From Verrucomicrobiales bacterium (GTDB lineage Bacteria > Verrucomicrobiota > Verrucomicrobiia > Verrucomicrobiales > DEV007): a stretch of 19,416 bases of DNA. A program made the translations under genes and the position numbers. The notes beneath the pieces were generated by a model. It did not search any database. It was not told the DNA's origin and was given only the letters and a program-made list of their open reading frames with translations. The stretch lies in the NCBI GenBank assembly GCA_023253615.1, contig JALRFZ010000710.1, positions 1 to 19,416 of the forward strand, written 5' to 3'. Within the stretch, counting starts at the first letter, position 1, and each line of letters opens with the position of its first letter. Below, piece after piece: positions 285 to 5,055 of this stretch.

Positions 285-1475
285 TCACGCCAACCACTGC
301 CGCACGAGGATCGGCGCGACGATCCGCAGGATCGCGAGACCCGCGCCGGCCATCATCAGACTCGTCACGACGACAAATGCGCCCTCGAACAGGACGAGGG
401 CCCGCACCGTCCCCGGATCGGCGCCCAGGTGTCGCAAGTGCCGGAATTCATCGCGCCGGAGCCGATTCGAGAGGAGAAAGACGAGCGCCCCGATCGCGAG
501 CGTGGCCACGCCGATCGCCCCGAGCAGCCTCAGGACGAAATCCTGCACGCTGAAGACGGTGGCGAAAAGTTCGTCCATCTCCGTCCCGGGTGAAATGAGC
601 TGCGGACCGCCCGCCTTTCCATAGCGTCCTTTCAGCAGCGCCTGCGCCTTCGCATCCACGGGGATCACGATCGCCGCGGTCACCGGATAATCGGCGATCT
701 CGCCGTGGAAATGGAAATCATCGGTATTTTCCTCGGTCACCTCGTTGTATTGCACGACCGAGGCATTCAGCCGCACGGCACCGTCATCGCTCCCTGACAA
801 AGCCGCCAATCGCGCTTCCTCGCCGAGTTTGTCCGCCTCCTCGTGCCCGTGGCCGAGACCCTCGATGATCCACGCGGTCTTCACGTCCACGAAGATCGCC
901 GCGTCGTCTGGCGTTCCCGACGGAGCCAGTACTCCGACGACCTTCATTTTCAGCGGATATACCCCCGCGAGATCAAAGAGCGTCTCGGGCGTGGAGATGA
1001 CCGAATCGCCGGGAACGATGCCGTTTTGCGCCGCGACACCGGATCCGACGACGCATTCGCCGAGATCGATGAGCCCTCGACCCTCGCGGATCTCCAGCCC
1101 GCGGAAGTCGAAGTAATCCAGCGTCGTGCCGACGATGCGGTGGTCCGCCGCGGCATAACGCGCGTAAAGCGGGATCACGGTGGCGAGCCCGTCGGCCGCG
1201 ATCGCCTCGGTCCCGCCATAGGGCAGTGTGGCGATGGCGGGTTTGGTGAAATACAGTCCGTTGAAGACGAGCTCGAGCGGACTCCCCGCCTGACCGAGCA
1301 ACAAAGGCGTGCCGGCCGCCCGGGCGCGCAGTTGCTCCTCCACCTTGCCCACGACGAGGGCGATGCCCGCGGGGAGCAGCCACACGAGGCTGAAGGCGGC
1401 GACGAGCAGGGCCGTCTTCGCCCGGTTCCGGCCGAGGTAGCGGCGACCGAGGAACCAAACACCGCCCGCGTTCAT
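285..1475 (-). CDS. FtsX/MacB-type ABC transporter permease with His-rich periplasmic segment
   Basis: 396 residues. The ATG (1475-1473) overlaps the ATPase stop as ATGA, so translation is probably coupled. TM1 is at ~22-43, followed by a large periplasmic domain (~44-312) of the MacB-PCD kind. TM2 is at ~314-335 and one or two segments lie within ~359-391. The cytoplasmic loop RLRRDEFRHLRHLGADP is the usual FtsX coupling region. Unlike most FtsX domains the chain ends at ~391-396 with no clear final TM and cytoplasmic tail, so it is short at the C-terminus. Two His-rich patches sit in the periplasmic domain: GLGHGHEEAD (207-215) and DDFHFHGE (252-259). FtsX-type permeases usually power mechanical work or export (LolCDE, MacB) rather than forming a pore, and some relatives are metal-linked. 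Substrate unknown; metal involvement is inferred from the His patches. Confidence 0.85.
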   Translation of the reverse strand: MNAGGVWFLGRRYLGRNRAKTALLVAAFSLVWLLPAGIALVVGKVEEQLRARAAGTPLLLGQAGSPLELVFNGLYFTKPAIATLPYGGTEAIAADGLATVIPLYARYAAADHRIVGTTLDYFDFRGLEIREGRGLIDLGECVVGSGVAAQNGIVPGDSVISTPETLFDLAGVYPLKMKVVGVLAPSGTPDDAAIFVDVKTAWIIEGLGHGHEEADKLGEEARLAALSGSDDGAVRLNASVVQYNEVTEENTDDFHFHGEIADYPVTAAIVIPVDAKAQALLKGRYGKAGGPQLISPGTEMDELFATVFSVQDFVLRLLGAIGVATLAIGALVFLLSNRLRRDEFRHLRHLGADPGTVRALVLFEGAFVVVTSLMMAGAGLAILRIVAPILVRQWLA

Positions 1476-2140
1476 GCGACGCCTCCTTTCCTCAAGGCGG
1501 GCACGTCGATGGTGCGGTCGAACCGCGGCAGCAGCAGCGGATCGTGGGTGATCATCAGCACCGTCGCGCCGATCTCCCGCGCCTCCTCCAGCATCAGGCT
1601 GACGATGCGATCCTGGTTCTCCGGATCGAGGTTGCCGGTGGGTTCGTCGGCGAGGATGAGCGGCGCCGCTGTGACGAGCCCCCGGCACAGGGCGGCCCGC
1701 TGCCGCTCGCCCTGCGAGAGTTGATCGGGATATTTCCGGAGATGGCTGGCGATCCCCGCCCGCTCCGCGAGCTCTTCGCAGCGCGCGCGCGCCTCGTCCC
1801 CGATGCCGCCGCCCGCCCCGAGCCGGAAGGGCAGCAGGATGTTTTCGCGGACCGTGAGATAGTCGAGCAGCTCGAAATTCTGCGGCACCAGCCCGATCAT
1901 GCCGAGACGGAAACGCTGCCGCGCCGCGAGGGGAAAGAGATTCACCTCGACCCCGTCGACGAGGATCGCCCCCGATTGAGGCACGAGCAACCCCGAGATC
2001 AAATTCATCAGCGTCGACTTTCCGCATCCGCTCGGACCGACCAGGGCCACCGCCTCGCCGCGGGCGACGGAAAACGCTTCGATGCCCAGCACGAAGGCCT
2101 CGCCGGGATAGGCGAAACGCACCTGTTCACAGTGGATCAT
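1472..2140 (-). CDS. ABC transporter ATP-binding protein, LolD/MacB type
   Basis: 222 residues, the usual size for a LolD-like ATPase. Walker A GPSGCGKST at 35-43, Q-loop Gln87 (LVPQNFELL), signature LSQGERQR at 141-148, Walker B LILADEPTGNLD at 161-172 and switch His199 (MITHD) are all intact, so it should hydrolyse ATP. The EPTGNLD form is typical of the subfamily that pairs with FtsX-type permeases. The start ATG overlaps the stop of the upstream membrane-protein gene by 4 bases, and its own stop overlaps the permease start in the same way. It would act as a cytoplasmic dimer driving the adjacent permease. The subfamily is firm; the substrate cannot be read from the ATPase. Confidence 0.93.
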   Translation of the reverse strand: MIHCEQVRFAYPGEAFVLGIEAFSVARGEAVALVGPSGCGKSTLMNLISGLLVPQSGAILVDGVEVNLFPLAARQRFRLGMIGLVPQNFELLDYLTVRENILLPFRLGAGGGIGDEARARCEELAERAGIASHLRKYPDQLSQGERQRAALCRGLVTAAPLILADEPTGNLDPENQDRIVSLMLEEAREIGATVLMITHDPLLLPRFDRTIDVPALRKGGVA

Positions 2141-3366
2141 GGGACGGGATTCGGTGCGGGTGCGGGTGCCGCGGGCGGATCGGCGATCTGACGCGAGACT
2201 TTCTGCATGCGCTCCTCATTGAGCAATTCCAGACCGCTGATCTTCCACGTCTCGTCGAGCGCCACCAGCGTGATCTCGGCCTCGTAGCGGTTCGTCCGTT
2301 CGTGGGTGTGGCCCCAGTGAGTGACTTCTCCGATCGTCACCCACTCGGCCCGGGTGCGGAATCCGCCCGAGGCGAGTTCGCCGCCCGGCACCCCGCGGCA
2401 CTCGCGCAGGGCGATCTCGTAGACCCGCACCCTCGGGCCACCCGTATTTTCCAGTTCCAGCGAGGCACGCATCTCGAGGTAGACCTTTTCCAAGAGAGGT
2501 CCGCTCACGCTTTTTTCGAGCGTGTCGTAAATGGCCGACTCATCCCGGAAGTCGAAGGCGTGATACGTGTTGCGCAACAGCGCGTAGACGAGATCCTCGG
2601 CCGCCGCATCCGCCGGCAGGATGACACGGACCCGCTCGTAACGCAGGGCGAAGACCCCCAGCCCGATCCCGCCTACCATCAGCCAGCCCACCCACGCGGG
2701 GGACTTTGTCTTGCGCCTCACCACCACGACCGCGGCCACCGCGAGCATGAGGAGCCCGCCGAAAACCAGCGGACGCAGGGGTCGGCTGCTCTCCCGCCGC
2801 AAACCCGGCACCGACTGCAGGGCGGGCAAGGTGGCATCGCCCTCGAGCTTCCACACCGCCTCGTTTTCCGAAGGCGTCAGGAGCCGCGCCGACGGCTTGC
2901 CGCGACTGGCGATCTCGAGGACGAGGCGCTCCTGCCCGGGCGCGAACCAGAGCCATTCGAGATCAAAGGCCGTCACGCCGACGAGGGCGGAGGAAAGAGT
3001 CAAACCCACCAGCGCCTCCTCCACCGGGATGGACTCCCGCTCGTCCGTGAGAAAGCCCTTTTCCGCATCCGGCACGATGAACCGCAGGCTGCGCTCCGTG
3101 AAAACGAGATCCTTCCCCGGAACCGTCACGTTCACCCCTGATTCGAAAAGGGTGAGGAGATTGTCGAGCACCGCCTGTTTTTCCCCGGGACCGATCGACT
3201 CGCCCTCGAGCCTCCACGATTCGCGGTAAGCCGACACTTTCACAAGTGCCTCAAGACGGAATTCAAAGGGCTCGACACTCACAAAACCCCGCACCGCCTC
3301 CTGCGCCGCGAGCGGGGCACCGGCGAGGAAAACGCAAAGGATGGGGAGACTCAGGCGGCGGAACAC
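2137..3366 (-). CDS. Unknown membrane-anchored periplasmic protein, first gene of the ABC operon
   Basis: 409 residues from a GTG start; no better ATG is available and the signal peptide begins at once (1-21, ending PLAAQ). Predicted topology: periplasmic N-domain (~24-195), TM1 ~198-216, a short cytoplasmic loop with RRKTKSP, TM2 ~224-241, then a C-terminal domain (~250-390) that should return to the periplasm by the positive-inside rule. The C-domain is mixed alpha/beta, somewhat like an NTF2-type fold, and contains a His cluster HWGHTHERTN (350-359: His350, 353, 355). A Pro/Ala tail ends the chain. It is translationally coupled to the ATPase gene, so it is probably a dedicated subunit. I cannot name a family; similar uncharacterised proteins beside ABC genes in planctomycetes are an impression I could not check. 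Confidence 0.75.
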   Translation of the reverse strand: MFRRLSLPILCVFLAGAPLAAQEAVRGFVSVEPFEFRLEALVKVSAYRESWRLEGESIGPGEKQAVLDNLLTLFESGVNVTVPGKDLVFTERSLRFIVPDAEKGFLTDERESIPVEEALVGLTLSSALVGVTAFDLEWLWFAPGQERLVLEIASRGKPSARLLTPSENEAVWKLEGDATLPALQSVPGLRRESSRPLRPLVFGGLLMLAVAAVVVVRRKTKSPAWVGWLMVGGIGLGVFALRYERVRVILPADAAAEDLVYALLRNTYHAFDFRDESAIYDTLEKSVSGPLLEKVYLEMRASLELENTGGPRVRVYEIALRECRGVPGGELASGGFRTRAEWVTIGEVTHWGHTHERTNRYEAEITLVALDETWKISGLELLNEERMQKVSRQIADPPAAPAPAPNPVP

Positions 3367-3399: not shown

Positions 3400-3516
3400 A
3401 ACTCCCGCACCCGGCCGGGCCCCGTTTTGTCGGACAATCCCTGTTCAAAAAAGCCCTGAAGACGCTCCTTGATTCACCCCCGATCTTTGCTTTGTTCACC
3501 CTTTACATTTTCCATC

Positions 3517-5055
3517 ATGCGTAAAAGAACCCTCCCCCTGCTCCTGACGGGAACGCTCGTGCCGGTATTCGGGCATGCCCAGACCGTCGATTTCATGACC
3601 CAGGTGAAGCCCCTCCTCGAAGGCACCTGCATCCACTGCCACCACGAGGAGAAGGCCGAGGGCGAATATCGCATGGACACGATGGAGCTCGCCTTCGCGG
3701 GCGGGGAGAACTACGCGAAGGAGACCATCATCCCCGGCGATCCCGAAGCCTCGCCGGTCTACTGGATGACGACCGAGCCGGCCGACAGCGCCGATCTCAT
3801 GCCGCCGAAAAAGCCCCTCTCCGTCGAGCAGCAGGAGATCCTCAAAACCTGGATCGCCGAGGGCGCCAAGTGGCCCGAGGGCGTGACCCTCGAGGAAAAG
3901 CCGCGCATGGATTTCAAGAACAACATCCTCCCCCTCCTCTCCAAGGGCGGCCCCTTCAAGGCGGAAGAGCAGAAGATGCTCCGCCTGTGGGTCGAGCAGG
4001 GTGCCGTCTGGCCGGCTGATTTCAAACTCGGCGGCGAGAGCGAAGCCGACAAGGGCGGCCTCGCCGACAACCTCGAGCTCGTGAAGGTCATCCGTGAAAA
4101 CATCCTCGCGACCACCAAGGAAAAAGCCGAGGGCGACATGAAGGACTACACCGGCACGATCACGAAGACCGGCGTCAAATACGACATGGTCGCGATCAAG
4201 GGCGGCGAGTTCCTGATGGGCAGCCCCTCCGATGAAAAAGGCCGTGTCGAAGATGAGGGGCCGCAACACAAGGTGAAGATCTCGCCCTTCTGGATGGGCA
4301 AATTCGAGGTCACCTGGAACATGTACGAGCCCTTCATGATCACCGGCGTCGCCCGCAACAAGGATGGTTCGCCGGAAAACATCCCCGCCGACGCCGCTCC
4401 CGTGGATGTCATTTCCAGCCCCACCACTCCCTACACCGAGATGAGCTTCGGCATGGGCACCGACGGCTTCCCCGCCATCTGCATGACCGAGCACGCCGCC
4501 AGCAAGTTCTGCCAGTGGCTCAGCGCCCAGACCGGCCACTACTACCGCCTCCCCACCGAGGCCGAGTGGGAGTACGCCTGCCGCGCCGGCACCGCCGGCC
4601 CCTACAGCTGCCCCGAGGACCAGCTCGCCGATTTCGCGGTGATGGATCCCGAACAGGTCCGCGTCGGTTACGAGAAAGTCGGCACGAAGAAGCCCAATCC
4701 CTGGGGTCTCTACGACATGCACGGCAACGTCATGGAATGGTGCCTCGACCAATACAGCGACAAGGGCTACGCCGGTCGCGAAGGTGTCACCGAAAATCCC
4801 CTCGCCATCCCCACGACGCTGTATCCCCGCGTCGCCCGCGGCGGCTCCTGGTATGATCCGCCGGAAGAGCTCCGCTCCGCCCGCCGCATTTCTTCCAACG
4901 AAAACTGGAAGGTGCAGGATCCCCAGTTGCCCAAGTCGATCTGGTATCACACCGACGCCCATTGGCTTGGCTTCCGCATCGTGCGCCCCCTCGAGATCCC
5001 CGAGGCCGAGAAGATGCACCAGCTCTGGAATCTGGGCACGGTCGACGGCAACTGA
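3517..5055 (+). CDS. Exported protein: planctomycete-type cytochrome c domain fused to FGE-like (SUMF1) domain
   Basis: 512 residues from the ATG at 3517; an upstream in-frame TTG (3469) would bury the signal peptide (1-21, ending FGHA). A haem-binding CIHCH (38-42) lies in the motif set of planctomycete cytochrome c domains, with DLMPPKKPL downstream giving a candidate axial Met and a closing KTWIAEGAKWP. A second half-copy follows (DFKNNILPLLSKGGPF to LWVEQGAVWP) with no CxxCH. From ~224 to ~490 is a formylglycine-generating-enzyme-like domain: AIKGGEFLMGSP, LPTEAEWEYACR, WGLYDMHGNVMEW (from 396), RGGSWYDPP (from 441) and GFRIVRPL. The copper-binding cysteines expected after RGGS in true FGE are absent, so sulfatase activation is unlikely and a C-type-lectin-like binding role more so. 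It leads a run with apbE, nusB and ftsY. Confidence 0.9.
   Translation: MRKRTLPLLLTGTLVPVFGHAQTVDFMTQVKPLLEGTCIHCHHEEKAEGEYRMDTMELAFAGGENYAKETIIPGDPEASPVYWMTTEPADSADLMPPKKPLSVEQQEILKTWIAEGAKWPEGVTLEEKPRMDFKNNILPLLSKGGPFKAEEQKMLRLWVEQGAVWPADFKLGGESEADKGGLADNLELVKVIRENILATTKEKAEGDMKDYTGTITKTGVKYDMVAIKGGEFLMGSPSDEKGRVEDEGPQHKVKISPFWMGKFEVTWNMYEPFMITGVARNKDGSPENIPADAAPVDVISSPTTPYTEMSFGMGTDGFPAICMTEHAASKFCQWLSAQTGHYYRLPTEAEWEYACRAGTAGPYSCPEDQLADFAVMDPEQVRVGYEKVGTKKPNPWGLYDMHGNVMEWCLDQYSDKGYAGREGVTENPLAIPTTLYPRVARGGSWYDPPEELRSARRISSNENWKVQDPQLPKSIWYHTDAHWLGFRIVRPLEIPEAEKMHQLWNLGTVDGN

Follow-up and report, generated by a model that had tools for sequence, protein, structure and literature searches.

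What does an ATP-binding cassette (ABC) operon do when two of its proteins carry clusters of histidine in domains predicted to lie in the periplasm? The question is raised by a stretch of 19,416 nucleotides from a Verrucomicrobiales bacterium (assembly GCA_023253615.1, contig JALRFZ010000710.1; hereafter, the window), in which three genes on the minus strand encode, in this order, a 409-residue protein, here called the partner, an ATPase and a permease. A sequence-only reading of this DNA had suggested a metal-linked periplasmic complex. The analysis described here points to a Zrg-like machine of the type VII (MacB/Lol) class of ABC proteins, which would transfer a transition metal, most likely zinc, in the periplasm; we put the probability of this interpretation at roughly 60%. 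A metal is the best reading because three features converge: a ZrgA-like predicted fold in the partner, a ZrgB-like permease, and a ZnuA-type protein that accompanies them in many genomes.

An operon conserved across phyla

Both gene junctions are ATGA overlaps, as first claimed and as the coordinates of the open reading frames (ORFs) bear out; a 580-residue ORF at 285-2027 is the permease frame extended upstream beyond the permease ATG. The best NCBIfam matches of the ATPase are FtsE, L_ocin_972_ABC, DevA and LolD, every one below its own cut-off.

Is this arrangement peculiar to one genome? A scan of genome contigs gave 195 confirmed partner loci, and the locus counts that follow come from the best 80 of them. 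By record titles, 38 of the 80 are verrucomicrobial and the remainder are mainly of Desulfobacterota type or gammaproteobacterial; Dadabacteria, Methylomirabilis, Rokuibacteriota, Spirochaetes, Acidobacteria, Planctomycetota and Sumerlaeota are also represented. In 68 of the 80 loci, the ATPase and permease genes follow the partner downstream on its strand, so the linkage of the first gene to the ATPase/permease pair holds elsewhere and across phyla. In 58 of the 80, the ATPase starts at most 100 nucleotides from the end of the partner, when the longest-ORF starts are used. Two of the 12 unlinked loci stop at a contig end, and a whole-genome search finds the permease elsewhere in 11 of the 12. 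Most records are draft metagenome assemblies, and absences are weak for that reason.

A second question is whether the histidines are conserved. The patches noticed in the sequence exist (GHGH and FHFHG in the permease, HWGHTH in the partner; Table 1), and in the partner they are kept almost without exception: among the best 120 of 170 homologues found, H350 is present in 119, and H353 and H355 in all 120. In a set of 74 sequences, some as little as 24% identical to the window, H350, W351, G352, H353 and H355 do not vary. At the 80 loci, HWGHxH occurs in 79 of 82 partner-family ORFs; one exception meets the contig end before the motif (L017), another is an N-terminal fragment (L075), and the third is a second copy with HWAHQH (L048). 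H209, H211, H255 and H257 of the permease are each retained in all 64 sequences compared, namely the window sequence and 63 of 69 locus ORFs (at least 340 residues; six shorter ORFs were dropped), aligned as one group of 28 (the window and the loci as far as L033) and one of 36 (L035 onward). Chance clustering of histidine was considered and is ruled out by this conservation in partner and permease.

A MacB/Lol-type permease with three transmembrane helices

What kind of permease is it? In Pfam it matches MacB_PCD, with FtsX and DUF7315 below cut-off (FtsX at 17.7 bits, covering 7-69 of 120) and no match to ABC-3. Long helices span residues 18-54, 296-339 and 354-395 in the structural model, whose mean predicted local distance difference test score is 84.4, falling below 50 at residues 165-169 and 223-241. 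The predicted layout, with a first transmembrane (TM) helix, a MacB-type periplasmic domain and then TM2-TM3, is that of the type VII (MacB/Lol) superfamily. The nearest folds are MacB, LolC/LolE and chains of a non-canonical ABC protein of S. pneumoniae, which match over the full length only with a large root-mean-square deviation.

Type VII permeases have four TM helices, and, to judge from the alignments, the fourth is missing here. After the column of E364, at most 36 residues follow in all 64 permeases (one is truncated at a contig end), versus 73-92 in ten ZrgB, LolC, LolE and MacB; the structural match to A. baumannii MacB stops at residue 620 of 650. Hydropathy predicts three TM segments in 53 of the 64, four in 10 and two in one, and in the two four-TM sequences that were inspected the extra segment falls within the periplasmic domain.

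With a profile of the permease family, ZrgB is the top scorer among the permeases tested. Ten ZrgB sequences reach 75-102 bits (they come from 12 fetched ZrgA loci, two of which, L105 and L116, gave no ZrgB match and were omitted), while E. coli YbbP, MacB and LolE and the other FtsX permeases of the window's own genome score at most 16 bits or are unreported. An ordinary MacAB or LolCDE copy is ruled out, such permeases not exceeding 16 bits. Among 185 Gammaproteobacteria, the tier next below 470 bits consists of 23 genomes at 47.8-91.9 bits, and 16 of these belong to the 20 with ZrgA above cut-off.

A partner with a predicted membrane anchor

The partner matches no Pfam or NCBIfam family above cut-off. 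A Pfam search that takes in 21 homologues as well yields nothing better than E 0.0091, again with no family above cut-off, and a PDB sequence search with the family gives nothing of note (best E 0.9). In its model, two long helices joined by a basic RRKTK loop stand between two folded domains, in agreement with the topology first proposed; the signal peptide and the topology were judged by eye. ZrgA is the top structural match of the model and is placed on the N-terminal domain. The C-terminal domain is predicted to be an NTF2 cone, whose nearest solved folds are the intermembrane-space domain of ARC6/PARC6, then VirB8 and Tim44. The proposal that the first gene encodes a new kind of partner subunit therefore stands in part: the protein has no Pfam family and is linked to the pair, but the predicted fold of its N-terminal domain has a precedent in ZrgA.

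Outside the relatives of the window, the partner is often ∼600 residues long, with an additional N-terminal domain (L063:7344-9179, L042:7206-9182, L038:7218-9161). A histidine in this extra domain (H181 in L063) is conserved across 33 sequences, at 93% or more. The domain may be a tandem ZrgA-like copy; the alignment of the extension with domain 2 by hhalign (P 0.0008) is suggestive only.

A ZnuA-type companion

Does the system have a binding protein? The absence of a typical one, as first stated, is true within the window and does not extend to the family. In many loci the permease is followed by a member of a protein cluster of ∼310 residues; the two members that were scanned match PF01297 (ZnuA). 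This variant ZnuA adjoins the partner gene in 31 of the 80 loci, 30 times downstream and once upstream, always on the same strand. The window's genome encodes it on another contig, C761, where the match reaches 357 bits, versus 38 and 54 for the two other ZnuA loci of that genome. With PF01297 the same copy scores 155.7 bits, which places it in the ZnuA family, as are two locus copies. Five histidines (H116, H118, H124, H126 and H196) are invariant in all 30 sequences aligned, which are 29 of the 31 locus ORFs (at least 250 residues; two shorter ones were dropped) and the own-genome copy.

The variant ZnuA also tends to occur where the partner does. Among 36 relatives, the partner is found in 25 and the variant ZnuA in 20 (called above 300 bits; the next score is 75), with both in 19, the partner only in six, the variant only in one and neither in 10 (Fisher p 2.7e-4). 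For the 13 genomes outside the genus, the corresponding numbers are three, one, zero and nine (p 0.014). Of 185 Gammaproteobacteria, four have the partner, five the variant ZnuA and six the permease (called above 470 bits; the next score is 92), and all four partner genomes carry the other two (Fisher p 1e-7 for partner and variant ZnuA). These p values ignore shared ancestry. One genome of this collection, G198, has the permease and the variant ZnuA near a contig start.

As a separate observation, a truncated globin gene stands directly upstream of the variant ZnuA, on the same strand, in 11 of 15 variant ZnuA loci of the window's relatives (L117:3594-3968, L145-L158). One globin was scanned and matches PF01152; the 15 loci were drawn from 23 variant ZnuA matches above 300 bits.

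Comparison with known systems

The general plan is shared with ZrgABCDE of Vibrio and PA4063-PA4066 of Pseudomonas: separate genes for an ATPase and a MacB-type permease, together with a periplasmic protein of ZrgA fold, which in the partner is predicted. V. cholerae and V. parahaemolyticus depend on ZrgA for growth when zinc is scarce (PMC9820375, PMC9817125), and the affinity of PA4063 for zinc is micromolar (PMC8561739).

The differences are several. Unlike in Zrg, the ZrgA-like domain of the partner is predicted to be membrane-anchored and fused to an NTF2-like domain, and the permease is without TM4. The permease has GHGH...FHxHG, whereas ZrgB has one aligned His and no FHxHG. The companion is the variant ZnuA, while Zrg loci carry DUF3299 (ZrgE) beside ZrgB in four of five tested (PF11736; at the fifth, L106, the ORF chosen encodes a pirin). 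DUF3299 was matched in none of the 36 relatives, but no control genome matched it either. PF10986, whose model matches a fetched ZrgA and 24 of the 185 Gammaproteobacteria, is not matched by the 409-residue partner at E ≤ 1, nor is it among the 25 of 27 Pfam families shown for the partner with its 21 homologues; it was not found in the window's own genome, where no control matched. A link between the N-terminal domain and ZrgA at the level of sequence was sought with hhalign and discarded: P 0.013 (probability 1.5%), versus 0.024, 0.25 and 0.43 for three unrelated controls (the protein's own C-terminal domain, a ZrgB set and the variant ZnuA set), was taken as no evidence. Because it has neither a PF10986 subunit nor a four-TM permease, the system is best filed outside Zrg, though the general plan is shared; on present sequences and models, it would be a variant among the metal-linked ABC machines of type VII.

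ZnuABC and the cluster A-I importers offer another comparison, since there too a PF01297 protein goes with an ATPase/permease pair. Unlike ZnuABC, the permease is of MacB/FtsX type instead of ABC-3, and the variant ZnuA is without two of the classical His ligands. Identity with classical ZnuABC is ruled out, the permease matching MacB_PCD and not ABC-3; an ABC-3 permease is found at a separate, classical locus of the window's genome.

MacAB-TolC, LolCDE, YbbAP and FtsEX share the predicted permease fold, but they have four TM helices instead of three and are distinguished from this system by its invariant His pairs and its anchored NTF2/ZrgA-like partner. Finally, the partner model, compared as a whole, has a fold match to the Ang-1 "anglerase" domain of HupE/UreJ-2 proteins (9gce, E 1.3e-5). 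As there, a periplasmic domain is tied to a membrane protein (PMC12537917); unlike Ang-1, there is no HupE/UreJ permease and, by eye, the N-terminus left after the predicted signal peptide bears no His. Within the open-licence PMC literature that was searched, no paper was recognised as describing this gene set.

How might the machine work?

In the mechanism that we favor, periplasmic metal transfer by a Zrg-like type VII machine, the ATPase would drive the MacB-type permease, which presumably acts by mechanotransmission, as in its class, and not as a channel. The predicted periplasmic domain of the permease carries the two invariant His pairs, GHGH and FHxHG. The near-constant partner, with its predicted ZrgA-like domain and the HWGHxH of its NTF2-like domain, would stand beside it in the membrane, and the variant ZnuA, with an invariant HxHG...HxH motif of its own, is the probable soluble metal carrier. 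Movement driven by ATP could then load or unload metal between His sites, the metal, probably zinc, being handed from protein to protein in the service of acquisition or of trafficking.

Could this be a separate class of type VII proteins? A more specific version of the idea is that the TM hairpin of the anchored ZrgA/NTF2 partner supplies the helix that the three-TM permease lacks, and that the His path runs from the variant ZnuA to the partner to the permease, with an ATP-driven periplasmic hand-over and no channel. This version is tentative, and we regard it as doubtful.

Several observations weigh against a Zrg-like metal transfer machine. The kinship of the permease with ZrgB appears one-sided and not exclusive, because a ZrgB profile gives the 64 permeases 35.8-86.2 bits (window 63.3), a range that overlaps an FtsX permease of the same genome (41.1) and E. 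coli MacB (39.7). The relation of the N-terminal domain to ZrgA is a matter of predicted fold alone, and this domain has zero His in the window's partner. The variant ZnuA is absent at 29 loci that have room for the permease and ∼1.5 kb more, 24 of them among L001-L027, the loci nearest the window. Six of the 25 partner-bearing relatives, which are draft genomes, have no variant ZnuA above 300 bits, and one of these partner-only genomes (G013) holds an 82-residue fragment of it at 70.8 bits. The gammaproteobacterial genome G050 has the permease without partner or variant ZnuA, and the genome of locus L057 has the partner but gave no permease match in the genome search. In addition, the window's genome carries classical ZnuA genes that adjoin ABC-transporter genes (L118:3618-6358, L119:3763-5778). 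Moreover, in an alignment with 2o1e and 7jj8, the variant ZnuA has lost two of three histidines that we take to be the classical zinc ligands (PHDWEP to DPAFWKP, HVWL to TTWL) and kept the third; since those two are gone, its metal or its mode of binding may be different.

Two side observations belong here: in the permease-negative genome of L057, the partner gene has an intact HWGHQH (L057:7827-9128), and the ZnuA of L118 is split across two matches.

Regulation also weighs on the same side. Unlike at Zrg operons, no convincing Zur-type operator lies upstream in the 69 of 80 loci that were scanned, the other 11 having too little upstream sequence. Zur consensuses of several bacterial groups were used. 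Those of the gamma, alpha and Firmicutes types have no match within three mismatches in the 69 regions, though the phyla of these loci may have Zur sites of another form. The cyanobacterial type within three mismatches occurs in five of 69, versus nine of 690 shuffled regions, but these are scattered over unrelated loci and the comparison is uncorrected for the number of motifs. When four mismatches are allowed, the gamma type occurs in six of 69 upstream regions versus eight of 345 random stretches of the same loci, an excess that mostly vanishes against shuffled copies (34 of 690).

Is the purpose, then, something other than zinc supply? A metallation machine, similar to NosDFY, would deliver metal to exported metalloenzymes instead of feeding the cytoplasm, and the lack of a convincing Zur box would suit it. 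So would a cluster of metallo-beta-lactamase-fold proteins present in 15 of the 80 loci (two members scanned match PF00753; the signal-like N-termini were seen by eye). At five loci it lies at most 330 nucleotides upstream of the partner and shares its strand. This cluster has no member in L001-L037 and so is not found beside the Verrucomicrobiales operons nearest the window, and we consider this purpose unlikely. Quite apart from this, the metallo-beta-lactamase-fold proteins near the partner are sometimes multi-copy (L038:3867-6893, L054:1982-4628, L055:5958-7214, L066:3423-5982 and others).

Or, does the machine work outward? PA4064/PA4065 of P. aeruginosa have been assigned to pyochelin export (PMC11481552), an assignment that counts against a zinc-supply role for Zrg-like systems and suggests that the present one might export a metal or a metallophore. 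The MacB fold of the permease and its proximity to ZrgB by its own profile fit export, and in four of the 80 loci there is a cluster with an outer-membrane protein of FadL type (one was scanned and matches PF03349). Export is nevertheless quite improbable in our view: among 19 annotated neighbor proteins, two of them long partner forms, there is no MacA-type adaptor or TolC-type channel (some clusters are unannotated, and no MacA search was made), and a ZnuA-type binding protein would suggest capture.

A last alternative is that nothing is transported on balance, and that occupancy of the His sites controls the ATPase or an envelope process. FtsEX, a type VII relative, is described as a signal transmitter, and PA4063 has been proposed as a possible sensor (PMC8561739). 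In 13 loci there is a cluster containing sequences that, by eye, resemble regulators and kinases. Most of these regulator-like genes are over 4 kb away from the partner, and sensing would make a ZnuA-type carrier unnecessary; a sensing complex is accordingly very improbable.

Why should periplasmic metal transfer by such a machine attract interest? The role of MacB-type ABC proteins in zinc supply is unsettled, papers on Zrg-type systems being split between zinc import and pyochelin export. The system described here, a sister of the Zrg-type ones, is present in Verrucomicrobiota, Desulfobacterota, Gammaproteobacteria and others, and its candidate metal sites are invariant residues in three proteins, so that the question is open to point mutation. 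A member with three TM helices would, in turn, show what the type VII design can do without.

Features of the window and a neighboring gene

Table 1. Positions of the operon genes, predicted domains and His motifs in the window
Feature	Residues	Window positions	Strand	Remarks
Membrane-anchored partner protein	409 aa	3366-2137	minus	GTG start; predicted signal peptide, then ZrgA-like domain, TM hairpin and HWGHTH-bearing NTF2-like domain
N-terminal periplasmic domain	19-172	2851-3312	minus	predicted fold ZrgA/PA4063-like
TM hairpin	200-221 and 225-242	2641-2769	minus	basic RRKTK loop; helices from model; topology putative (positive-inside)
C-terminal NTF2-like domain	245-391	2194-2634	minus	predicted fold
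HWGHTH	350-355	2302-2319	minus	turn between long strands E336-350 and E353-370 (model)
ATP-binding subunit	222 aa	2140-1472	minus	PF00005, E 3e-32
MacB/Lol-type (type VII) permease, three TM helices	396 aa	1475-285	minus	MacB_PCD 34.2 bits
Permease periplasmic domain	55-295	591-1313	minus	
GHGH (H209, H211)	208-211	843-854	minus	kept 64/64
FHFHG (H255, H257)	254-258	702-716	minus	kept 64/64; model of low confidence nearby (223-241)

Next to the operon, a divergent ORF of 528 residues occupies positions 3469-5055 of the window. By eye, its product looks secreted, with a CxxCH haem-type motif and a domain resembling formylglycine-generating enzymes.

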